Shown here one piece after another: positions 31,414 through 63,549 of a stretch of 64,000 bases of DNA. The notes under the pieces are model-generated. The model saw nothing but the letters and a program-made list of their open reading frames with translations. It was not told the DNA's origin and searched no databases. Within the stretch, counting starts at the first letter, position 1; every line of letters begins with the position of its first letter. The stretch lies in the NCBI RefSeq assembly GCF_000526335.1, contig NZ_JAFW01000001.1, forward strand, positions 4,030,001-4,094,000, read 5' to 3'. Source of the stretch: Arthrobacter sp. 31Y. Its GTDB lineage: Bacteria; Actinomycetota; Actinomycetes; Actinomycetales; Micrococcaceae. The position numbers and the translations under genes were made by a program.

Positions 31414-31429
31414 GTTACTGAGCAGTAAC
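31414..31429. promoter_or_regulatory. GTTA-N8-TAAC operator before the acyl-CoA dehydrogenase
   Basis: GTTACTGAGCAGTAAC is an inverted repeat of GTTACTG around AG; TA/TA extend it beyond one mismatch on each side. It lies 105 bp before the ATG at 31535. The same GTTA-N8-TAAC form recurs twice at the TetR/carboxylase promoter. Confidence 0.6.
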
Positions 31430-49025: not shown

Positions 49026-49220
49026 AATGCGCAAGATTAGCACGGTCGGGGAGGCCGATACAGGGCAAAATGATCAATCTTTGAAGTGGTAGTTGTACCC
49101 CCTGACACTTGTGAGTAGGGTCACAGTTAACTTCGGCGAAGGTGCCGGAGGGCCGGTCTGCGGCAGGATCACAAGTCCCGCCAGCGCCGACGAAAACGAG
49201 CCGGAAGGTTGCGATCACCT

Positions 49221-50390
49221 GTGTTGACGGATCAGGCGGGCAAGGGAGTGCACAACCACACTCCGGGCCCAGGACATAGTGCACAAATTCCCTTGAGGAC
49301 TGGCGGAGATCTGCTCCAGTTGGTGTCGCCGGAGGGCGAACGCATCAGCCATCCCGAATTCGATATCTGGGTCAAGGACATCGGCGATGAGCACCTGTGC
49401 TCCTTGTATGAGGACATGACAGTCATTCGCCGTATCGATGCGGAGGCTACGGCCCTCCAGCGGCAGGGAGAGCTCGCATTGTGGCCCCCGTTGCTGGGTC
49501 AGGAGGCGGCTCAGATCGGCTCAAGCCGCTCACTCCGGGATGATGACTTCGTCTTTCCCAGCTACCGCGAAAGCGGAGTGGCCTATGTTCGTGGCGCGCA
49601 TCTTTCTGAGATTGCCCGCGTGTGGCGCGGCAACGCCTCCTATGGTTGGGATCCCCTGCGCATCAACCTGGCGACGCCCCAGATCATCATTGGTTCCCAG
49701 AGCCTGCACGCCACGGGCTATGCCATGGGTGTGCAACTGGATGGTGCCAACACCGCGGTACTTGCCTACTTTGGCGATGGCGCCACGAGTGAAGGCGACG
49801 TCAACGAGGCCATGGTGTTTGCTGCGAGCTACCAGGCTCCCGTGGTGTTCTTCTGCCAGAACAACCACTGGGCAATTTCCGAGCCCGTCCGCGTACAGTC
49901 CCACGTCCAGCTTGCTGACAGGCCAAGCGGCTTCGGTATTCCCAGCATGCGGGTTGATGGCAATGATGTCCTGGCCGTCATGGCTGCGACCCGTGTGGCC
50001 TTGGACCGCGCCCGCAAGGGTGGAGGACCTACCTTTATTGAGGCTGTTACTTACCGCATGGGACCGCACACTACCGCCGATGACCCCACCCGATACCGTG
50101 ACCCCATCGAGTTGGAGGACTGGGCCGCCAAGGACCCCATTCTGAGGCTGCGAAAACTGCTCGAAGCCAAGGGCCTGCTGACTGAAGACGTGGAAGCCCG
50201 GGTGAAATCAAAGGCGGATGCTGTGGCCGCCGAACTTCGGGCCAGCTGCATCGATATGCCGGACCCGCAGCCGCTGGATGTCTTCAATCATGTGTACAGC
50301 ACTCCCAATTCCTGGATTGAACGCCAGAAGGACCACTACTCGCGCTATTTGAACAGCTTCAACCAGCCCGTCGAGGAAGGTGCACTCTGA
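49221..50390 (+). CDS. 2-oxo acid dehydrogenase E1 component, alpha subunit (branched-chain or pyruvate type)
   Basis: 389 residues from GTG 49221; TTG 49209 is an alternative. The TPP motif is GDGATSEGDVNEAMVFAASYQAPVVFFCQNNHW and the phosphoregulatory-like loop MGPHTTADDPTRYRD also matches E1 alpha. It decarboxylates a branched-chain 2-oxo acid or pyruvate and acylates lipoate with E1 beta. Stop and the E1 beta start overlap (TGATG). No E3 gene is in the operon; a shared lipoamide dehydrogenase elsewhere is expected. Lrp-regulator adjacency favours branched-chain substrate, without excluding pyruvate. Confidence 0.9.
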   Translation: MLTDQAGKGVHNHTPGPGHSAQIPLRTGGDLLQLVSPEGERISHPEFDIWVKDIGDEHLCSLYEDMTVIRRIDAEATALQRQGELALWPPLLGQEAAQIGSSRSLRDDDFVFPSYRESGVAYVRGAHLSEIARVWRGNASYGWDPLRINLATPQIIIGSQSLHATGYAMGVQLDGANTAVLAYFGDGATSEGDVNEAMVFAASYQAPVVFFCQNNHWAISEPVRVQSHVQLADRPSGFGIPSMRVDGNDVLAVMAATRVALDRARKGGGPTFIEAVTYRMGPHTTADDPTRYRDPIELEDWAAKDPILRLRKLLEAKGLLTEDVEARVKSKADAVAAELRASCIDMPDPQPLDVFNHVYSTPNSWIERQKDHYSRYLNSFNQPVEEGAL

Positions 50391-51400
50391 TGTCCAAGCT
50401 CACTTTTGCCCGGGCCATCAATGCCGGCCTCCGGAAGTCCCTCGAAAATGACCCCAAAGTGGTCCTCATGGGAGAAGACATTGGCTCCCTCGGTGGCGTC
50501 TTCCGCGTCACGGATGGGCTACAGAAAGACTTCGGCAAACACAGGGTGATCGATTCGCCACTGGCTGAGTCGGGCATCATCGGCACCGCAGTAGGGTTGG
50601 CCTACCGCGGTTACCGCCCGGTGTGCGAGATCCAGTTCGATGGGTTCATCTACCCGGCGTTCGACCAGATCGTCAGCCAGGTAGCGAAGATGCATTACCG
50701 GACCCAGGGGCGGGTCAAGATGCCCATCACTATTCGTGTTCCTTTCGGTGGCGGCATCGGGTCCCCGGAACATCACTCCGAATCGCCCGAGGCATATTTC
50801 ACGCACACCTCCGGCCTCCGGGTGGTGGCTGTGTCCAACCCGCAGGATGCCTACACCATGATCCAGCAGGCCATCGCGTCCGATGATCCCGTCCTTTACT
50901 TTGAGCCCAAGCGGCGTTATCACGACAAGGGCGACGTGGATGAGACCCTGGACCTCTCCACCGCCCTTCCCCTGGATAAAGCTGCCGTGGTCACCGCAGG
51001 TTCTGATGTCACGTTGGTTGCCTACGGACCGCTGGTCAAGACTGCCAAAGATGCTGCCATGGCCGCGGCCGACGAAGGCATTTCGGTGGAAGTCATCGAT
51101 CTGCGCTCGCTGGCTCCGGTGGACTACCCCGTAGTGGAAGCTTCTGTCCGTAAGACCGGACGCCTGGTCATCACCCACGAGGCCGGCCAATCCGGAGGCC
51201 TTGGCGCTGAAATCGCCGCCAGCATTACTGAACGCTGCTTCCATTACTTGGAGTCCGCCCCGGTCCGCATCACCGGTTTCGACGTTCCGTATCCATACTC
51301 GAAGCTCGAAATGCACCACCTGCCCGATCTGGACAGGATTCTCGACGGCGTGGACCGCGCCCTGGGCCGGCGCAACTCCCTGAGCGGACTGGAAGGATGA
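50390..51400 (+). CDS. 2-oxo acid dehydrogenase E1 component, beta subunit
   Basis: 336 residues. VVLMGEDIGSLGGVFRVTDGLQKDFG and RVIDSPLAESGIIGTAVGLAYRGYRPVCEIQFDGF are typical E1 beta, with the C-terminal VDYPVVEASVRKTGRLVITHEAGQSGGLGAEIAA. It forms the alpha2beta2 E1 enzyme with the preceding gene. Coupled at both ends: TGATG upstream, and an ATGA overlap with the E2 gene downstream. Confidence 0.93.
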   Translation: MSKLTFARAINAGLRKSLENDPKVVLMGEDIGSLGGVFRVTDGLQKDFGKHRVIDSPLAESGIIGTAVGLAYRGYRPVCEIQFDGFIYPAFDQIVSQVAKMHYRTQGRVKMPITIRVPFGGGIGSPEHHSESPEAYFTHTSGLRVVAVSNPQDAYTMIQQAIASDDPVLYFEPKRRYHDKGDVDETLDLSTALPLDKAAVVTAGSDVTLVAYGPLVKTAKDAAMAAADEGISVEVIDLRSLAPVDYPVVEASVRKTGRLVITHEAGQSGGLGAEIAASITERCFHYLESAPVRITGFDVPYPYSKLEMHHLPDLDRILDGVDRALGRRNSLSGLEG

Positions 51401-52857
51401 CCGCCACCATGATTAAGGAATTCAGGCTGCCGGACCTTGGCGAAGGCCTGACCGAATCGGAAATCCTGAGTTGGAAGGTAGCGGTGGGGGACACCGTCAC
51501 GTTGAACCAGGTCATCGCTGAGGTTGAAACCGCCAAGGCCGTTGTTGAGTTACCCTCTCCCTTCGCAGGAGTGGTGGCTGAACTTCATGAGCAGCCTGGC
51601 ACGGTGGTTGAGGTTGGCAAGCCGATCGTCTCCTTCGAGGTTGACGACGCCGGGTCCTCCAACGGTGGCGGTGTACCGGACACGCGTGACCGGTCTGCTG
51701 CTGGGCCCGCCGGAAACCAGTCCGCCGGAAACCAGTCCACTGGCGACAGGGCCGCCGTCGAAACATCTACCAAGGGTTCGCCGGCAACTGCCGACGCTCA
51801 AGCTGTGGGGGCTCCCGCGAAACGTGAGCCGAACCTGGTGGGGTACGGCGCCGTCGTCGAGCATTCCGGCCGCCCCACCCGCCGGGCCCGCGGCCAGGTC
51901 CGGGACGCGAAGTCCGCACCCCCGGGGGCTCCGGTGGTTAGCGAGCCTGCGGTGGCTCGTCAGGCAGAGGCCGAGAACTCTGAGCGTCCGCGCTCAACCC
52001 CGCCCGTGCGCAAACTTGCGCGCGATCTTGGCATTGAACTTGAACTCGTCGCAGGTACTGGACCTGGCGGGCTCATTACCCGCGAGGATGTCCAGAACTT
52101 TTCCGGTGCAACAGAAGCTCCTTCCGAGACTCAGGTTTCTGTTGCCGCGCAGAGCGAGCGGGAAACCCGCACTCCCATCAAGGGTGTCCGCAAGTTCACG
52201 GCCGCAGCGATGGTGCAGAGTGCGTTCACTGCCCCGCACGTCACGGAATTCCTCACGGTAGACGTCACGGCAACCATGGAATTGCTGGCAAGGCTCAAAG
52301 GCAACAAGGCGTTCGACGGCTACAAGCTGACACCGCTGACCATTGCGTCCAAAGCTGTCCTGGTGGCGCTCCGGAACAACCCATCTCTGAACTCACGGTG
52401 GGATGAGGCCAGCCAGGAGATTGTCCAGTTCAACTACGTGAATCTGGGCATCGCTGCCGCCACACCCCGAGGCCTGACCGTTCCGAACATCAAGGACGCG
52501 GACATGCTGACGCTGCGGGAGCTTTCCACGGCGCTGACCGAACTCACGGACACCGCGCGTGCAGGCAAGACGTCGCCGTCGGAGTTGTCCGGTGGCACCA
52601 TCTCAATCACCAACATCGGCGTGTTTGGCATAGACGCCGGGACTCCCATCCTGAATCCGGGCGAGGCCGCTATCGTGGCTTTGGGCGCTGTGCGGAAGGC
52701 TCCATGGGTGGTGAATGACCAGCTCGCCGTCCGGCAGGTCATGTCCCTCAGCCTGTCCTTCGACCACCGCTTGGTGGATGGCGAGCAGGGATCCCGATTC
52801 CTTGCCGACCTCGGCGCTATCCTTGCTGACCCCGCCATGGTGATGACCATGATCTAG
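51397..52857 (+). CDS. Dihydrolipoamide acyltransferase, E2 component
   Basis: 486 residues: lipoyl domain at 5-82 with lipoylated Lys47 in EVETAKAVVE, a long Ser/Ala/Pro linker at about 85-200, subunit-binding domain (VRKLARDLGIELELVAGTGPGGLITREDV) at about 205-240, and the acyltransferase core ending in catalytic SFDHRLVDGEQGSRF. A single lipoyl domain fits branched-chain or simple pyruvate E2. Last gene of the three-gene operon; a long-loop inverted repeat follows. Confidence 0.93.
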   Translation: MTATMIKEFRLPDLGEGLTESEILSWKVAVGDTVTLNQVIAEVETAKAVVELPSPFAGVVAELHEQPGTVVEVGKPIVSFEVDDAGSSNGGGVPDTRDRSAAGPAGNQSAGNQSTGDRAAVETSTKGSPATADAQAVGAPAKREPNLVGYGAVVEHSGRPTRRARGQVRDAKSAPPGAPVVSEPAVARQAEAENSERPRSTPPVRKLARDLGIELELVAGTGPGGLITREDVQNFSGATEAPSETQVSVAAQSERETRTPIKGVRKFTAAAMVQSAFTAPHVTEFLTVDVTATMELLARLKGNKAFDGYKLTPLTIASKAVLVALRNNPSLNSRWDEASQEIVQFNYVNLGIAAATPRGLTVPNIKDADMLTLRELSTALTELTDTARAGKTSPSELSGGTISITNIGVFGIDAGTPILNPGEAAIVALGAVRKAPWVVNDQLAVRQVMSLSLSFDHRLVDGEQGSRFLADLGAILADPAMVMTMI

Positions 52858-54129: not shown

Positions 54130-56148
54130 TTATGTTCTTTGGGGTGTGTGGTGGTGGTTGCGTCGGGGTGTTTGGTGGGGGTCGATGTGGGGTGGGGGGA
54201 TGAACCAGGGGACGCCGGTTTTCATGTTGATGCGCCATTGTTCTTTGTGGATGAGGTGGTGGTGGTGGCTGCAGAGCAGGGTGCCGTTGTCTGTTGATGT
54301 GGTGCCGCCGTGGGACCAGTAGGTGGTGTGGTGGGCTTCGCACCAGGGTGCGGGCATGGTGCAGTCGGGGAAGGTGCAGCCTTGGTCGCGGGCGGTGATG
54401 GCTTTGCGGATGTGGGGTGGGAAGATCCGGGTGGTGCGGCCGATGTCCAGGACGCGGGAGTCGCTGCCGAGTAGGACGGGGAGGATGTCGGCGTCGCAGG
54501 CGATTTTGCGGATGGTGTTCGGGTGGATCGGACCGGTGAACGTCGCTGTGCCCGTCCCTAAACCTGCACCTGCATCTGTCCCTGTCGCTGTATCTGTGCC
54601 GCGCTGTTTGTGCTGGCTGGCCTGGTTGTGGCTGCTTACTTGTCCGAGGAGTTCTTGGTAGCCGATGGTGATGGCGAGTTGGGGTCGGTAACCGCCGTTG
54701 GAGGGCAGCTTCGCGGTGGTCAACGCGACGCTGCAGGCACCGACGAGGCCGTTGAGGAGTTTCTGTGCCCGGGTGCGCAGGTCCAGGTCCAGGTCCGGAC
54801 CGCTTGATCCGGGCTGGGGTCCCGTACCGCCGGGTTCCGCGCTGCTCCCGGTCCCGGCGGTGCTGGTGCCCGGTGTGGTTGTGTCCGTGCCGTTGCCGGT
54901 CCCGGTGTCTGGGGTCGTGGTGGTGGTGAGTCGGGGGTTGGTGGCGGTGTTCATGACGGTGGTGAGGGTTTCGTATTGTTCGTCGGTGGCGAAGATTTCG
55001 ATGTGGTGGAGTCCGTAGCGGCGCCGTTTGCGCAGGAACGCGCCTTGGTGCTGGCGGAGAACTTCTTCGGAAGGTTCGGCGCCGTTCTGGTCGATGGAGT
55101 CGATCCAGCGTTTGGTCATGGTGGTGACGAAGTCAGGGTCGGTCTCCACCGCGGTGGTGGTCAGGGAGTGTTCCATCCGGGTGATGGTGTCCTCGCCGGT
55201 GAGGTGCCGGACTTTGTCCAGGGCGGTACTGATGATCGTCGCCGACAGGGAAGGCACCAACGCGGAGCCGACAGCCTGGGCTAGGGTTTCGCGGCGGGCT
55301 GGGATCTCTTGGCCGGTCATTCCTGCCTGGGGGAGGACGTTCGTGGCGAGGGCGAGCCGTCGCCGGGCTTCACCGATACCGATCCGCAACCGTGCCCGAA
55401 GGAACTGCGCCGCGTCCCGATACCCATCATCCAGAACACTGGCCGTGGACCCGGCACCCCATTCCGCTGAGCCCGTCCCTGTGCCCGTGGTGGAACGGTC
55501 GCCGTCCACGTTGGAAACTAACGCCATGTCCGTTCCCGGCACCGGGTCAGTCCAGCCCGTCCGCCACTCCGGTGCTGCTGCCGAGGACCCCGGACCGGCT
55601 TGCTGTGCTTCTTTCCGGGCCCGTTCCACAGCCTGAGCCGCGACCACCTGCAAATACTCCACCGACCGGGACATCTCCTCGACCCTGCCCGCAAAATCAG
55701 CAGCCTCAACAAACCCCAACAACCGGGCCTCGGCGGTGGCGGACAAGCGTGCGGAGTCCAGAAGAGCGGCGCCGGCTTCAAGCAGCGCCGTCAGCTCCGG
55801 CCCGGCAGCCAAGAGGTGTTCGGGTCTCGGAAGCTGCCCGACCGAACGTGGGCTTGGCTGAGCAGGCTCAGAGCTATAGCGGGTCCGGGCTTCGCGCGAT
55901 GGGTCGGGCGTCGATCCTGGATGGCCGGCTGCGGCGTCTCGCTTCGGGGCGCCTGTGCGGCCAGTACTGTTGAGCAGCCCAGCGCCATGGAAATGTGCGA
56001 TCACAGTGATGTGCGCCGTCGAATCGGTGCGCCCAGCCTTGACCAAGTGCGGCATGCTCACAACGCGCTGTGACCTTACCGCAGCCAGGGCAGCAACGGC
56101 AGGGGAGAATTCCGCCCATGATGCCGTCGACTGACCCAGTTTCTCCAT
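54130..56148 (-). CDS. DUF222/13E12-type HNH endonuclease protein
   Basis: 672 residues. The N-terminal ~450 residues are the DUF222 domain common in Actinobacteria; residues about 400-440 hold a low-complexity T/G/S/D run (PDTGTGNGTDTTTPGTST). The C-terminal HNH domain is intact: CTFPDC, WCEAHHTTYWSHGG, then N and LLCSHHHHLIH. The tail is Pro/His-rich. These genes are often in several copies; their role (possibly DNA defence or a selfish element) is unproven. Ordinary codon composition, no terminal repeats seen. ATG 56148 lacks a clear ribosome site. Confidence 0.85.
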   Translation of the reverse strand: MEKLGQSTASWAEFSPAVAALAAVRSQRVVSMPHLVKAGRTDSTAHITVIAHFHGAGLLNSTGRTGAPKRDAAAGHPGSTPDPSREARTRYSSEPAQPSPRSVGQLPRPEHLLAAGPELTALLEAGAALLDSARLSATAEARLLGFVEAADFAGRVEEMSRSVEYLQVVAAQAVERARKEAQQAGPGSSAAAPEWRTGWTDPVPGTDMALVSNVDGDRSTTGTGTGSAEWGAGSTASVLDDGYRDAAQFLRARLRIGIGEARRRLALATNVLPQAGMTGQEIPARRETLAQAVGSALVPSLSATIISTALDKVRHLTGEDTITRMEHSLTTTAVETDPDFVTTMTKRWIDSIDQNGAEPSEEVLRQHQGAFLRKRRRYGLHHIEIFATDEQYETLTTVMNTATNPRLTTTTTPDTGTGNGTDTTTPGTSTAGTGSSAEPGGTGPQPGSSGPDLDLDLRTRAQKLLNGLVGACSVALTTAKLPSNGGYRPQLAITIGYQELLGQVSSHNQASQHKQRGTDTATGTDAGAGLGTGTATFTGPIHPNTIRKIACDADILPVLLGSDSRVLDIGRTTRIFPPHIRKAITARDQGCTFPDCTMPAPWCEAHHTTYWSHGGTTSTDNGTLLCSHHHHLIHKEQWRINMKTGVPWFIPPPHIDPHQTPRRNHHHTPQRT

Positions 56149-56218: not shown

Positions 56219-56851
56219 TCAGGCCGAAGTCAGCGCCGCCAGAGCCATCTGTTCCAGGATGGGGCGGGCTGACTTCACGGCGATCTTCCTGCCGTGGTGG
56301 CGCACCGAGTGTGGCGTGGAGTTGATCAGACCAAAGGCTGCGTGTGCCCGGACACGTAACCCGGGAACATCTGCATCGGTGTGAATCCGTGCCAGGACGT
56401 CCACCCAGGTTTCGACGTAGCCGCGCTGCAGTGACCTGACTTCTGCTTGGTCGGCTTCGCCGAGGCTGCCAAAGTCCCTGTCCTGGACACGGATGACGTC
56501 GGGATTGCTGAGGGCGAAGTCAACCTGGAACCGGATCAGACCTTTCAGCGCCGACAGTGGGTCATCCGATACCGATACCACCCGCAGTCCGCCCTCCAGC
56601 AAGTCGCGGCTGACGCTGAGGAGAAGTTCGCCGAGGACCGCTTGCTTGCCGGGAAAGTGACGGTAGACGGCGGGTCCGCTGACGCCGGCCGCTGCTCCCA
56701 GATCTTCAAGGGACACTCGGGTGAAGCCGTTCTCGGCAAACAGCCCGGCCGCTGCGGACAACAAAGCCAGTCGGCGGAGTTCCTTTGCCTGGCCGCGTTG
56801 AGTGGCAGCGGCGCGGGTGCCATTGATGCTTGCTTCCTGACCTTCGGTCAT
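56219..56851 (-). CDS. TetR-family transcriptional repressor
   Basis: 210 residues. The HTH ([48 protein letters not shown]) spans about 28-75; the C-terminal sensor includes [22 protein letters not shown]. It is divergent from the carboxylase operon with two GTTA-N8-TAAC repeats between them, so it is the prime candidate for repressing that operon and itself. In mycobacteria the TetR-type regulator BkaR controls the equivalent branched-chain operon; equivalence here is inference from context. Ligand probably an acyl-CoA. Confidence 0.9.
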
Positions 56852-56970
56852 GTTTTCCTCCTTGGCCAGTCACCATCACGGTCCCAGGCCAGTAAAAGTC
56901 CAGCCCCAGCCACAATCAGAGTCCAGCCCCAGCCGCAGTCCTTCCGGGACCGCCTGTGCTGGACATCACA

Positions 56971-57012
56971 GTTAATAAAGACTAACCTAAATTTCAGTTA
57001 CGTGGCACTAAC
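56971..57012. promoter_or_regulatory. Paired GTTA-N8-TAAC operators in the TetR/carboxylase promoter
   Basis: GTTAATAAAGACTAAC (56971-56986) and GTTACGTGGCACTAAC (56997-57012) have half-sites GTTA and TAAC with 8-bp spacers, 26 bp apart centre to centre. They lie between the TetR gene (start 56851) and the carboxylase gene (start 57050). The second overlaps the area just before the carboxylase start. Confidence 0.6.
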
Positions 57013-57049: not shown

Positions 57050-58660
57050 ATGGAGACAATTTCCAGTCTGATGGGAACCGCGGGCGGCGCCTTCGAAGCT
57101 AACCAAGACGCGCAGCTGGCCTTGGTGGAGGAACTCAGGCAGCGCCTGGCGACGGCGGCCCTGGGCGGACCGGCAAAGTCGCGGGAGCGGCACATCGCCC
57201 GCGGGAAACTCTTGCCGCGTGAACGGATCGACTATCTGCTGGATGGCGGCAGCCCGTTCCTTGAGATCGCTCCTTTGGCTGCCAATGGCATGTACAGCGA
57301 CGAGTCCCCGGGCGCCGGGGTGATTGCAGGCATTGGTCTGGTCCATGGCCGCCATGTTTTGGTCATCTCCAACGACGCCACCGTCAAGGGCGGTACCTAC
57401 TATCCCATGACCGTGAAGAAGCACCTCCGGGCCCAGGAAATCGCCCTGGAGAACAAGCTCCCCTGTATCTACCTCGTGGATTCGGGCGGGGCGTTCCTGC
57501 CCAAGCAGGACGAGGTCTTCCCGGACAGGGAGCACTTCGGCCGGATCTTCTACAACCAAGCCAAAATGTCCGCAGCCAAGATCCCGCAAATCGCCTCCGT
57601 CATGGGATCGTGCACGGCCGGCGGCGCCTATGTACCGGCCATGAGCGATGAGACGGTCATTGTCCGGAATCAGGGCACCATCTTCCTAGGCGGCCCGCCC
57701 CTGGTCAAAGCAGCCATTGGCGAGATTGTCAGCGCGGAGGAGCTGGGCGGCGGCGACGTCCATTCAAGGATTTCCGGAGTCACGGACCACCTGGCTGAGA
57801 ACGACCAGCACGCGCTGGAGATCGTTCGCGACATTGTGGCGACGTTGCCGAAGCCGGCGCAGCCGGTCTGGGACGTGTCCGACGTCGTCCTGCCGCCCGT
57901 CGTCGATCCTGCGGAGATCTACGGTGTGGTTCCCACGGACGTCAACGCCCAATACGACGTCCGCGAAGTCATTGCCAGACTGGTTGACGGTTCCCAATTC
58001 CACGAGTTCAAGAAGAACTACGGCACCACCTTGGTGACGGGATTCGCGCACCTGCATGGCCATCCAGTGGGCATCGTGGCCAACAACGGCGTCCTCTTCA
58101 GCGAATCTTCGCTCAAAGGCGCGCACTTCATTGAGCTCTGCGATCAGCGCGGCATTCCGCTGATCTTCCTGCAGAACCTCTCAGGCTTCATGGTGGGCAA
58201 AGACGTCGAGCAGGGTGGCATCGCCAAAAACGGCGCAAAAATGGTCACCGCGGTGGCTACAGCCCGGGTTCCCAAACTGACCGTCGTCATAGGTGGCTCG
58301 TTCGGCGCCGGCAACTACTCCATGTGCGGGCGGGCGTACTCGCCGCGGTTCCTGTGGATGTGGCCGGCATCCCGCATCTCCGTGATGGGCGGAAACCAGG
58401 CCTCCAGCGTTCTGGCCACGGTCAAAAGGGACCAATACGAGGCAGCCGGACAGGAATGGTCGGCCGAGGACGAAGAAGCGTTCAAGGCTCCCATCAGGCA
58501 GCAGTACGAAGACCAGGGAAGCCCGTATTACTCGACCGCCCGGCTGTGGGACGACGGCATTATTGATCCCGCCGATACACGGCGCGTCCTGGGCATGGCC
58601 CTGGAGGTCGTCTCCCGCCAACAACTGCCCGAGACCTCCTTCGGTCTCTTCAGGATGTGA
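57050..58660 (+). CDS. Acyl-CoA carboxylase beta subunit (methylcrotonoyl-CoA carboxylase carboxyltransferase)
   Basis: 536 residues of the carboxyltransferase superfamily. [51 protein letters not shown] and [39 protein letters not shown], and the C-terminal [16 protein letters not shown], all match MCC beta/AccD1. Works with the biotin-carrying alpha subunit next door to make 3-methylglutaconyl-CoA from 3-methylcrotonyl-CoA in leucine breakdown. AGGGG precedes ATG 57050; in-frame ATGs at 57017 and 57035 are less likely. Its GTGA/TGACC junction with the alpha gene gives coupling. Confidence 0.92.
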
Positions 58661-58662
58661 CC

Positions 58663-60831
58663 ATGACCTTGCCAACTACAACCACAGGCCCGGCAAGACC
58701 GGTGGTGGAAGCCCGAACCTTCAAGGCCGTCCTCGTAGCAAATCGCGGAGAGATTGCCTGCCGCGTCATCCGGACCCTGAAAGAGATGGGCATCCGCTCA
58801 ATCGCCGTGTACTCGGATGCCGACAAGAATGCCAAGCATGTGGCCCTCGCCGATACCGCCGTCGCCATCGGTGGCACTGCACCCGCGGAGAGCTATTTGA
58901 AGATCGACGCCATCATCGACGCGTGTCGTCGTAGCGGCGCGGAGGCAGTCCACCCGGGCTACGGCTTCCTGTCAGAGAATGTGGAGTTCGCCAAGGCACT
59001 GGACGCTGCTGGCATCACCTTCATTGGGCCCGGAATTGGAGCCATCGAAGTCATGGGCGACAAAATCCGTTCCAAGAACCACGTGATGGCCTACGACGTC
59101 CCCTGCGTTCCAGGAATCGCGCAAGCAGGCCTCAGCGATCAGGAACTGATCCAGGCCGCACAGGGTGTCGGTTTCCCTTTGCTGATCAAGCCGTCCGCAG
59201 GTGGTGGTGGTAAAGGCATGCACGTGGTGGAGAGGCCGGAGGACATGGCCTCCACGCTCGTCACGGCCAGGCGCGTTGCAGCGTCTGCTTTTGGCGACGA
59301 CACTCTTTTCCTTGAGCGGCTCATCCGCGCCCCCCGCCACATCGAGGTTCAGGTCTTGGCGGACAACCACGGCAACGTGATCCACCTCGGCGAGCGCGAG
59401 TGTTCCCTCCAGCGGCGCCACCAGAAGGTGATCGAAGAAGCTCCGTCTGCCCTTTTTGAATCATTGCCCAATGGTGCGGAGGAGCGGGCGCGGATTGGCG
59501 AGGCTGCCTGCAACGCGGCCCGTTCGGTTAACTACAGTGGCGCGGGAACCGTGGAATTCCTGGTCTCTGACGAACATCCCGACGAGTTCTTCTTCATGGA
59601 GATGAACACCCGGCTTCAGGTGGAGCACCCTGTCACGGAAATGGTCACGGGCGTCGACCTCGTTGAATGGCAGGTGCGGATCGCCGCCGGTGAGGTTCTC
59701 ACCGTGGCGCAGTCCGACGTCGTACTTAAAGGCCACGCCGTGGAGGCGCGTGTCTACGCCGAGGTGCCCGAGCGTAACTTCATGCCGTCCATGGGGCGAA
59801 TCGTGGCGCTCGCTGAGCAGGGCGCACCTGATGCAGCCGTTTCGGGGCAGCAACCGGCGCATGCGAAGGTGCGGATCGATTCGGCCATGCGCGAGAACCT
59901 GGAGATCACGGGGGACTACGACCCCATGCTGGCCAAGGTCATCGCGTGGGGTGAAGACCGGGTTTCGGCGCTGAATACGCTTGACGCTGCGCTGGGCCGC
60001 TACACCTTGCTCGGCGTGGACACGAATGTGGAGTACCTGCGGTTGTTGATCAACGATCCCGAGGTCACAGCCGGGCACCTCGATACGGGGCTGATCGAGC
60101 GCAGGCTGCCGTCCATGACGTTCCGGCATGTTGGTTCTGCTGAGTTGATTGCCGCCGCCCTCACCCTCTGGCTTGATCGCACAGGTTCGGCGATTGCCGG
60201 CCACGCGTGGAAAACCGCCGACTCCTGGCGCGCCGGCGGACGCGGCGCGTGGACAGCCACCTTTGGTGTACCTGGCGCAGGGATTGTCACGGTGTCAATT
60301 ACCGAGGAGAACGGCAACGTCAGGGCAAGCATCGACGGCGGGAGTCCGGTCCACGTCAGGGTGGCGGATCGCGGCAACAACAGGATCATGGTGGAGTTCG
60401 ACGGCGGCCCGGTCACCTTCGCGGTTGGCGCGGCGGCGGGCGGCAACAGCGTCCACGAACTTTTTGTGGGCAACGACGGCTGGTGCTGCAGGCTTGAGGT
60501 CCTGAACCGGGCCGAGCGGCTGCGGCGGATGCTCGCCGGGATCCAACGCGACGAGGGGGCGGCGGACCCGGAGGTTCGTTCACCGATGCCCGGAACGGTG
60601 GTCTCCGTGTCCGTAGCCGACGGAGACACCGTGGAGGAAGGACAGGCGCTCCTTGCTGTGGAGGCCATGAAGATGGAGCACCAACTGGTGGCGTCCGTTG
60701 CCGGAACCGTTCATCTCACCAGCAAACCGGGCGACCTTGTCAAAGCAGACCAGGTGCTCGCCACCATTCACGTAGACACAGACAGCACCAGCACAGGCAG
60801 CAAGAACACAGACGAGGAAGTCCAGCCATGA
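58663..60831 (+). CDS. Acyl-CoA carboxylase biotin carboxylase/biotin carrier subunit (MCC alpha)
   Basis: 722 residues. Biotin carboxylase (AFKAVLVANRGEIACRVIRT-type start; ATP-grasp GGGGKGMHVVERPEDM; ERDCSLQRR-like ECSLQRRHQKVIEEAPS; EMNTRLQVEHPVTE), then a linker and the C-terminal biotin carrier with biotinylated Lys670 in VEAMKMEHQLV. AGGA 7 bases before ATG 58663 supports that start; GTG 58657 overlaps the beta stop. The substrate is set by the beta partner. The stop overlaps the dehydrogenase start (ATGA). Confidence 0.93.
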   Translation: MTLPTTTTGPARPVVEARTFKAVLVANRGEIACRVIRTLKEMGIRSIAVYSDADKNAKHVALADTAVAIGGTAPAESYLKIDAIIDACRRSGAEAVHPGYGFLSENVEFAKALDAAGITFIGPGIGAIEVMGDKIRSKNHVMAYDVPCVPGIAQAGLSDQELIQAAQGVGFPLLIKPSAGGGGKGMHVVERPEDMASTLVTARRVAASAFGDDTLFLERLIRAPRHIEVQVLADNHGNVIHLGERECSLQRRHQKVIEEAPSALFESLPNGAEERARIGEAACNAARSVNYSGAGTVEFLVSDEHPDEFFFMEMNTRLQVEHPVTEMVTGVDLVEWQVRIAAGEVLTVAQSDVVLKGHAVEARVYAEVPERNFMPSMGRIVALAEQGAPDAAVSGQQPAHAKVRIDSAMRENLEITGDYDPMLAKVIAWGEDRVSALNTLDAALGRYTLLGVDTNVEYLRLLINDPEVTAGHLDTGLIERRLPSMTFRHVGSAELIAAALTLWLDRTGSAIAGHAWKTADSWRAGGRGAWTATFGVPGAGIVTVSITEENGNVRASIDGGSPVHVRVADRGNNRIMVEFDGGPVTFAVGAAAGGNSVHELFVGNDGWCCRLEVLNRAERLRRMLAGIQRDEGAADPEVRSPMPGTVVSVSVADGDTVEEGQALLAVEAMKMEHQLVASVAGTVHLTSKPGDLVKADQVLATIHVDTDSTSTGSKNTDEEVQP

Positions 60832-61991
60832 GCACGTTTGAACTAAATGAGGAGTATCAGGACCTTAGCGACTCCGTCCGCGAGTTCGCTGACGAAGTGG
60901 TGGCACCCGTCTCCGCCAAGCACGACGAAGAGCACAGTTTTCCCTACGAGGTTGTGAAGCAGATGGGGGAGATGGGCTTGTTCGGCCTGCCGTTCCCCGA
61001 AGAGTTTGGTGGCATGGGCGGGGACTATTTTGCCCTTGCTCTGGCCTTGGAACAGCTCGGGCGAGTGGACCAGTCGGTAGCCATCACCCTCGAAGCCGGT
61101 GTCTCGCTGGGCGCCATGCCCGTATACCGCTTCGGAACGGATGCGCAGAAAGAGGAGTGGCTGCCGCAGTTGGCGTCCGGACGGTCCTTGGCTGGTTTCG
61201 GCCTGACGGAGCGTGAGGCAGGTTCGGATGCGGGCGGCACCAAGACCAACGCCCATCTGGAAAACGGCGAATGGGTGATCAACGGCAACAAAGAGTTCAT
61301 CACCAACTCAGGTACGGACATCACCACCCTGGTGACGGTCACGGCCGTGACGGGCCAGAAGGAAAACGCGGACGGCAGCACCAAAAAGGAGATCTCCACC
61401 ATCCTGGTGCCTACTGACACGCCCGGGTTCACCGCGGAAAAGCCGTACAACAAGGTGGGATGGAACGCGTCCGATACCCACCCGCTCACCCTGGACAATG
61501 TCCGCGTTCCGGAAGCAAACCTCCTGGGGGAGCGGGGCCGTGGTTATGCGAACTTCCTCTCCATTTTGGACGAGGGCCGCATCGCCATCGCTGCCTTGGC
61601 CACGGGCGCAGCCCAGGGGTGCGTGGACTTGTCCGTGAAGTATGCCAAGGAACGCAGCGCGTTTGGGCAGAACATCGGCAAGTACCAAGCCATCCAGTTC
61701 AAGATCGCGCGGATGCAGGCAAGGGCCCACACTGCCCGCCTCGCGTACTACGACGCCGCTTCCAGGATGCTGGCAGGCACGCCGTTCAAGACCGAAGCGG
61801 CCATCGCTAAGATGGTCGCAGGCGAGGCAGCCATGGACAACGCGCGGGACGCCACCCAGGTGTTCGGCGGCTATGGCTTCATCAACGAATTCACGGTGGC
61901 ACGCCATTACCGTGACTCCAAGATCCTTGAAATCGGGGAGGGCACCACGGAGGTGCAGTTGATGCTCATCGCCCGCGAGCTGGGTCTGTAA
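60828..61991 (+). CDS. Acyl-CoA dehydrogenase (isovaleryl-CoA dehydrogenase-like)
   Basis: 387 residues. [21 protein letters not shown] and [16 protein letters not shown] give the FAD/substrate region; [29 protein letters not shown] ends with the short-chain-type catalytic Glu371. Fits oxidation of isovaleryl-CoA (leucine) to 3-methylcrotonyl-CoA, the substrate of the carboxylase. Begins ATGA-overlapped with the alpha subunit gene. Related by fold, not by close motif, to the enzyme at 31.5 kb. Confidence 0.92.
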
Positions 61992-62011: not shown

Positions 62012-62800
62012 ATGATTGACAAGGTTGTTGCCAGCGCCGCGGAAGCGGTGAAGGACATCCCGGACGGTGCCTCATTGGCCGTAGGAGGTTTTGGTTTATG
62101 CGGCATCCCTGTTTCGCTGATCGATGCCCTCTACCAGCAGGGCACCACGGATCTTGAGACGGTCAGCAACAACTGCGGCGTGGACGACTGGGGCCTTGGC
62201 ATTCTCCTCAAGGATGGTCGTATCCGGCGGACTATCAGCTCTTACGTCGGCGAGAACAAGGAATTCGCCCGGCAGTACCTTTCGGGGGAGCTGGAAGTAG
62301 TTCTCACCCCGCAGGGCACCCTGGCCGAGAAGCTCCGCGCTGGAGGTGCCGGTATCCCGGCGTTCTTCACCAAAGCCGGTGTAGGTACTCAGGTGTCCGA
62401 AGGCGGACTTCCGCAAAAGTACGACGCCGACGGGAACGTTGCGATTGCCTCCTCGCCTAAGGAGGTGCGCACTTTCAACGACGCGGACTACGTGCTGGAA
62501 GAGTCCCTGACACCTGATTTCGGCTTGGTCCATGCCTGGAAAGGTGACAGGCACGGGAACTTGGTCTTCCACGCGACGGCGATGAACTTCAATCCCCTGT
62601 GTGCCATGGCGGCCCGGACCACCATTGCCGAAGTGGAGGAGTTGGTGGAACCCGGCGAGCTGGACCCTGAGCATATCCACACGCCGGGGATCTTCGTTCA
62701 AAGGGTGGTGGTTGCAACGTCCAGCGAGAAGCGGATAGAGAAGCGGACCGTGGCCCTGACCCCCAATACTGAAGCAGACCAGTCAGGAGCGGAACGATGA
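62012..62800 (+). CDS. 3-oxoacid CoA-transferase subunit A
   Basis: 262 residues. [67 protein letters not shown] match ScoA-type subunits. Together with subunit B it moves CoA between succinate and acetoacetate (or a related acid), giving acetoacetyl-CoA from the leucine end product. Downstream gene overlaps its stop by four bases (ATGA at 62797). Confidence 0.93.
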
Positions 62801-63549
62801 CCGACAACACGTACCAGGACATCCCGCCCCGTCCCGAAGCCGTCCGGCACGAGTACCGCCGCGCCGACGTCGAGCATCACGACTCCAAAGGCTGGACCCG
62901 CAACGAACTTGCCGCCCGTGTTGCGCAGGAGCTGAGCAACGGGCAGTACGTGAACCTTGGAATCGGTATGCCCACGCTGATCCCCAACTACATTCCGGAC
63001 GGCGTGGAGGTCATTCTTCACTCTGAGAACGGAATCCTCGGCGTGGGTCCTTACCCGGCTGAGGACAAGATTGATCCGGATCTCATCAACGCGGGCAAGG
63101 AGACGGTCACCACCAATGCCGGGGCCGCGTTCTTTGATTCGGCGGCGTCCTTCGGCATGATCCGCGGCGGGCATGTGGACGTAGCCGTTTTGGGTGCCAT
63201 GGAGGTGGCTGTGAATGGTGATCTGGCCAACTGGATGATTCCCGGCAAGATGGTCAAAGGCATGGGTGGCGCCATGGACCTCGTGTTTGGTGCCAAGAAA
63301 GTCATTGTCATGATGGAACATGTGGACCGCAGCGGCAGGCCGAAGATCGTCCAGGACTGCACGCTCCCGCTCACAGGTAAAGGTTGCGTGGACCGCATCA
63401 TCACTGACCTCGCTGTCATCGACGTCGTCAAGGATGATGGCGAACCGCGTTTGGTCCTCCGCGAACTGGCCCCCAACGTCACCCTCGACGACGTCGTGGC
63501 GGCCACGGGCGCGGACCTGTTCGAAGAAGACCAGGAACTGACCGTATGA
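62797..63549 (+). CDS. 3-oxoacid CoA-transferase subunit B
   Basis: 250 residues. The catalytic glutamate is Glu77 in [35 protein letters not shown] and [15 protein letters not shown] follow. The first ~32 residues are an extra, charged extension beyond the usual ~215-residue subunit B core, beginning [20 protein letters not shown]. Coupled to subunit A and, by another ATGA, to the MaoC gene. Confidence 0.92.

Follow-up and report, generated by a model that had tools for sequence, protein, structure and literature searches.

Tandem GTTA-N8-TAAC palindromes as candidate operators of a BkaR/AccR-type TetR repressor at the carboxylase promoter of Arthrobacter sp. 31Y

In Arthrobacter sp. 31Y, a gene for a TetR-family protein and an operon that starts with an acyl-CoA carboxylase gene are transcribed divergently, and the region between them carries two inverted repeats of the form GTTA-N8-TAAC in tandem. 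Which protein reads these repeats, and what would it control? The question is addressed here for the 64-kb stretch of the genome that contains the locus (the window) and for the corresponding loci of related bacteria. The favoured answer, to which a probability of roughly 95% is given, is that both repeats (O1 and O2) are the operators of the divergent repressor, a protein of the BkaR/AccR/PccD type that would block the promoter of the carboxylase operon as well as its own gene, and that would be released by acyl-CoA intermediates of leucine breakdown. The features of the locus are the following.

56219..56851, minus strand: TetR-family repressor gene of the BkaR/AccR/PccD type (SACE_7040 family), 210 aa; Pfam TetR_N and TetR_C_24, NF050111
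56960..56965, plus strand: putative -35 hexamer (TGGACA) for the carboxylase operon, separated from O1 by 5 bp
56971..56986, plus strand: candidate operator O1, GTTAATAAAGACTAAC, exact GTTA-N8-TAAC, within the putative -35/-10 spacer and overlapping the -10
56983..56988, plus strand: putative -10 hexamer TAACCT, 17 bp after TGGACA, its first four bases being the right arm of O1
56997..57012, plus strand: candidate operator O2, GTTACGTGGCACTAAC, exact GTTA-N8-TAAC with one degenerate half, at or just after the predicted transcription start
57050..58660, plus strand: acyl-CoA carboxylase carboxyltransferase subunit (AccD1/methylcrotonyl-CoA carboxylase beta type), start ATGGAGAC; Pfam Carboxyl_trans, E 1.3e-157
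58657..60831, plus strand: biotin carboxylase/carrier subunit with a BT_MCC_alpha domain (AccA1 type); Pfam
60828..61991, plus strand: acyl-CoA dehydrogenase (Pfam), presumably of the isovaleryl-CoA dehydrogenase/FadE19 type from its operon position
62012..62800, plus strand: 3-oxoacid CoA-transferase subunit A (scoA), TIGR02429 over the cut-off
62797..63549, plus strand: 3-oxoacid CoA-transferase subunit B (scoB), TIGR02428 over the cut-off

The genes from the carboxyltransferase to scoB overlap or nearly abut, and by eye the ORFs beyond scoB look MaoC-like and citE-like. This gene set resembles that of mycobacteria. Divergence of the TetR gene from an accD1-accA1-acyl-CoA dehydrogenase operon is a trait of the repressor family and is found here from the ORFs and the Pfam matches. 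A 672-aa ORF with an end that looks HNH-endonuclease-like by eye lies downstream of the TetR gene (54130-56148, minus strand). Beyond the TetR gene, bkd-type genes occupy 49209-52857, with pyruvate dehydrogenase E1 alpha as the best curated match. No BkaR site is claimed at this bkd-type operon (49209), since the only match, at 49126, has 2 mismatches and the window holds 10 such matches versus 5.8 by chance.

The TetR protein is a member of the NCBIfam family NF050111 (SACE_7040), with a score of 263.1 bits and a curated cut-off of 250. Its best solved chains are 4g12 and 6yj2 (E 8.8e-51) and 6yl2, and 100 of the 200 query residues aligned to 4g12 are identical. The entry 4G12 is Fad35R of M. 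tuberculosis (PMC4418694), which is the name given by another group to BkaR (PMC3920632). The genome holds a sole close homolog, the protein at 56219 itself, and the next best match has an E value of 1.8e-9. Over the best segment, its identity to the counterparts at the 16 top-ranking named loci, labelled Paenarthrobacter or Arthrobacter, is 83-96%.

The arrangement of the repeats was correctly described in the initial annotation: they lie in tandem at 56971-56986 and 56997-57012, 26 bp apart from start to start and separated by a gap of 8 bp, between the TetR gene (56219-56851, minus) and the carboxylase gene (57050-58660, plus). Its count by eye of four matches in the window is also exact (56971, 56997, 9193 and 31414), and its expectation of about 0.26 per 64 kb is close to the 0.28 obtained from the base composition. 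Dinucleotide-preserving shuffles of the window give a mean of 0.03 matches, and 0 of 100 shuffles reach 4. On the other hand, the whole-genome scan that it had proposed reveals no enrichment of the bare pattern, with 15 places in 5.08 Mb versus 22 for the reversed control pattern. By simple arithmetic, about 0.002 pairs at most 50 bp apart are expected from 15 sites in 5.08 Mb. It is the tandem pairing of O1 and O2, and not the genome-wide count of the motif, that is exceptional. Since the bare motif is not over-represented in the genome, the evidence must come from position and conservation.

As to position, a heuristic ORF call places 8 of the 15 genome sites outside any retained ORF, 5 of the 15 at most 100 bases from the start of a retained ORF (starts as listed, not individually confirmed), and O1 and O2 in an upstream extension of the carboxylase ORF. 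By these listed starts, the motif thus tends to lie near gene starts. The stretch between the operators and the TetR start also contains two copies of AGTCCAGCCCCAGCC (56897-56911 and 56920-56934).

Conservation was followed in two sets of loci, many of which are close relatives, so that the counts do not represent independent events. The named set comprises the best 80 of 138 relatives, scanned over 450 bp upstream of the TetR match. Two exact copies occur in 74 loci (68 at 26 bp and 6 at 25 bp), one copy in 5 and none in 1, and GTTA-N8-TAAC is absent from the other 464,374 bp of the 80 loci. The class-wide set was drawn from 296 sampled genomes and comprises 130 loci: 111 matches listed over the cut-off, the window's own excluded, and 19 of the 38 listed below it; L108 and L125 apparently belong to the named set as well. 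Within 500 bp upstream, 112 of these loci carry at least one exact copy and 80 carry at least two, with 192 copies in 67,424 bp of upstream DNA versus 10 in 387,879 bp elsewhere. Another 18 of the 130 are without an exact site in the stretch scanned, two of them with a divergent carboxylase. Counted from the tblastn match, a site is present in 111 of the 130 loci, that is, in 91 of the 93 in which the carboxylase is found divergent from the TetR gene and in 20 of the 37 others, a group that includes short flanks in which a carboxylase may be missed.

The recognition helix reads YRHF in 80 of the 80 named loci, and YRHF or YKHF in all 112 class loci with a site. The same residues occur in 16 of the 18 siteless class loci, so the recognition helix does not explain the losses of the site. 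The sole siteless named locus (L036) has no carboxylase in the flank examined. In the same genome, the carboxylase promoter at another locus (L242, protein 94% identical) keeps GTTAATAGCCACTAAC within TGGACA...TAACCT. In this single case, the operator stayed with the carboxylase promoter and not with the TetR gene.

The class sites also define the inner bases of the motif. Both halves follow GTTARY-N4-RYTAAC in 172 of the 192 copies and only one half does so in 20; there is no copy in which neither half does. O1 follows this RY rule in both halves and O2 in one, with CG instead of RY. The refined form GTTAC-N6-GTAAC put forward in the initial annotation is therefore wrong, as none of the 192 sites breaks the rule in both halves. 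When one mismatch is allowed, the RY form is not enriched in the genome (12 versus 38 in the control), nor is the published mycobacterial core (24 versus 28), and enrichment was rejected for both.

The motif can be compared with those of the characterised orthologs. In the mycobacterial species tested, the bkaR promoter region contains two copies of the core GTTA(N)T(N4)A(N)TAAC; purified BkaR gives gel shifts, binds as a dimer and holds one of its two sites less tightly than the other; and BkaR autoregulates, with accD1 onward derepressed in a deletion mutant of M. smegmatis (PMC3920632). In S. avermitilis, AccR acts on GTTAA-N6-TTAAC to repress accD1A1-hmgL-fadE4 (review PMC10933834), and its reported ligands are methylcrotonyl-CoA, propionyl-CoA and acetyl-CoA (PMC8546615), which lends the ligands suggested in the initial annotation some indirect support. 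For Fad35R, by contrast, tetracycline and palmitoyl-CoA are reported to reduce binding (PMC4418694). BkaR, AccR and PccD are related to each other in PMC11596240. O1 matches every fixed base of the mycobacterial core, and O2 follows it in part, with one mismatch. Neither site is strictly of the AccR form, O1 being GTTAA-N6-CTAAC and O2 GTTAC-N6-CTAAC.

The locus shares with BkaR (Rv2506/MSMEG_4718, Fad35R) the TetR subfamily, the divergence from an accD1-type operon, the two GTTA-N8-TAAC palindromes in the shared promoter region and the kinds of genes downstream. It differs in the host, here of the Arthrobacter group, and in the bkd-type genes, which are found beyond the TetR gene (49209-52857), whereas the M. 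smegmatis bkdABC genes are cotranscribed with the accD1 operon (PMC3920632). The spacing differs too: the sites are 26 bp apart here and 25 bp apart in 12 of the 17 pairs of family f10, taken as mycobacteria from the site sequences. AccR, likewise a TetR repressor, targets accD1A1-hmgL-fadE4 and has a 16-nt palindrome containing GTTA-N8-TAAC; in family f25, taken as Streptomyces-like, the pairs are 27-31 bp apart (25 of 25), in contrast to the 26 bp here. For PccD (Saccharopolyspora erythraea/Mycolicibacterium), the emphasis is on propionyl-CoA carboxylation, and a review table gives S. erythraea PccD a motif with another sequence (PMC10933834). O1, O2 and the TetR gene are almost certainly an orthologous copy of a known repressor-operator pair, and this kind of switch is already known from BkaR and AccR. 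A limited search of open-licence full texts found no title reporting a BkaR-type system in Arthrobacter. Taken with the family membership, the same published operator at the same kind of place and the class-wide conservation together with the gene arrangement support the proposal of the initial annotation that O1 and O2 are the operator of the TetR protein at 56219.

The promoter itself suggests how repression might work. It was aligned in the 68 loci with 26-bp spacing, anchored on O1 and chosen for exact arms, so that the invariance of the arms is by construction. TGGAC is present in 68 of 68 loci and the final A of the putative -35 in 63; the final T of the putative -10 is found in 68 and the preceding C in 62. 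The start ATGGAGAC (57050) lies at most 200 bases from O1 in 67 of the 68. A strict consensus promoter scan reported no promoter here; the predicted TGGACA-N17-TAACCT, with a -10 of the form TAN3T, fits a housekeeping promoter. On this prediction, O1 would cover the spacer together with part of the -10, and transcription would be expected to start at about the position of O2.

Judged from the sequence, each 16-bp site would be occupied by one repressor dimer, as the mycobacterial protein is a dimer. The bound repressor would block RNA polymerase, at O1 between the -35 and the -10 and at O2 over the start region. Repression of its own gene, shown in mycobacteria, is also expected here, given that the TetR gene and the operon share the intergenic region that holds both sites. 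A build-up of short-chain acyl-CoA intermediates of leucine breakdown (ligands of this kind are reported only for AccR of S. avermitilis) would release the repressor, and the accD-accA-acyl-CoA dehydrogenase-scoAB genes and those downstream would be expressed.

The two sites need not contribute equally. O2 may be weak, given its one degenerate half, a trait shared with 20 of the 192 class sites. It could be supposed that O1 alone is the functional operator and that O2 is a weak or decaying copy, which is in keeping with the non-RY half of O2 in the window and with the less tightly bound site of mycobacterial BkaR (PMC3920632). In one genome (G296), moreover, the accD promoter has lost its TetR neighbour and keeps O1 without an exact O2. 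This reading is nevertheless unlikely, since both copies are exact in 74 of the 80 named loci and, in the 5 single-copy loci, it is O2 that is exact, and O1 is missing one arm base in 4 of them and an arm in L099. The arm invariance of the 68 aligned loci is no evidence against it, because these loci were chosen for exact arms.

Far less probable is that another DNA-binding protein uses O1 and O2 and that the neighbouring TetR gene is incidental. The argument in its favour is that further GTTA-N8-TAAC sites, in the window and in the genome, carry a C at position 5 and probably serve another regulator, so that the protein cannot be named from the outer bases alone. The sites at O1 and O2, on the other hand, go with a carboxylase divergent from the TetR gene (91/93 versus 20/37 class loci), the same motif is bound by the mycobacterial ortholog (PMC3920632), and the genome has only one close TetR homolog. 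A chance origin of the inverted repeats in a promoter region can be practically dismissed: the motif is no commoner in the genome than its control (15 versus 22), but 79 of the 80 named and 112 of the 130 class loci keep a site, and the rest of these loci yields 0 copies in 464 kb and 10 in 388 kb, respectively.

The sites with C at position 5 form a second type of palindrome, GTTACY-N4-RGTAAC, with 7 exact places in the genome: 9193-9208 and 31414-31429 of the window, and 1028257, 1115210, 3828450, 3954169 and 4384387 of G000:C1. An acyl-CoA dehydrogenase ORF has the site at 31414 at its 5' end, and further sites of this type adjoin a thiolase, a carboxyltransferase with a divergent short-chain dehydrogenase, a thioesterase-like gene and an HlyIII/undecaprenyl diphosphate synthase-like pair, so that 4 of the 7 adjoin genes of the acyl-CoA type (acyl-CoA dehydrogenase, thiolase, carboxyltransferase, thioesterase-like). 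With 1 mismatch, this form is not over-represented in the genome (17 versus 37 in the control), and none of the 192 class BkaR sites has it. It looks like the operator of another regulator. A single regulator for all four window sites was rejected, as 9193 and 31414 (GTTAC...GTAAC) fall outside the RY rule in both halves and 0 of the 192 class sites do so.

Exact GTTARY-N4-RYTAAC occurs in three places in the genome: O1, 3192369 and 3244243. The last (G000:C1:3244243-3244258, L005) lies between a LysR gene and a short ORF, with a histidine-phosphatase-like gene behind the short ORF. The site at G000:C1:3192369-3192384 (L004, L253) starts 44 bp upstream of a short-chain dehydrogenase gene, which is followed by an acyl-CoA dehydrogenase gene; the short-chain dehydrogenase is related to 3-hydroxyacyl-CoA dehydrogenase type II (HSD10-like). 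Of 61 genomes searched in the genus, the 30 best loci, that of the strain itself included, all carry a single exact copy within 300 bp upstream, and there is no copy elsewhere in these loci (105,793 bp).

For the family's other genera, the analysis covered 60 of the 94 genomes that gave a strong match to the dehydrogenase. A BkaR-type hit was defined by E below about 1e-50, many such hits being under the family cut-off, and the negatives have E above 1e-18. GTTA-N8-TAAC lies upstream of the dehydrogenase in 18 of the 49 genomes with a BkaR-type hit (11 with RY in both halves, 7 in one half) and in 0 of the 11 without, which are all such negatives in the sample. The Fisher p of 0.024 assumes independent genomes, which they are not, and by genus the same comparison is weak (7/21 versus 0/4). 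As 31 of the 49 genomes with a BkaR-type hit are without the site, the HSD10-like target is not universal.

Pair spacing, for its part, varies with lineage: 25-26 bp in 14 of the 17 pairs of f10, 25 bp (17) or 28 bp (4) in the 21 pairs of f23, and 27-31 bp in all 25 of f25. Such shifts (25-26, 28 and 27-31 bp) change the relative helical face of the operators. Since both 25-26 and 27-31 bp seem to be tolerated, the two dimers may not depend on a fixed helical phase. It is somewhat probable that the BkaR-type repressor of the Arthrobacter group also controls the HSD10-like dehydrogenase/acyl-CoA dehydrogenase pair, coupling leucine breakdown to a second acyl-CoA route, possibly that of isoleucine, and that the tandem operators tolerate lineage-specific spacing. 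In the limited search, neither the HSD10-like extra target nor the tandem architecture across the class, with the RY rule and a spacing that depends on lineage, turned up in print.

Published work on the orthologs allows the operator and the likely class of inducer to be named for an uncharacterised TetR gene of the Arthrobacter group. With the form GTTARY-N4-RYTAAC, the sites of the BkaR-type regulator can be told from look-alikes, and one specific pair of genes stands out as a candidate further target. Much of the class shares a single conserved operator design.
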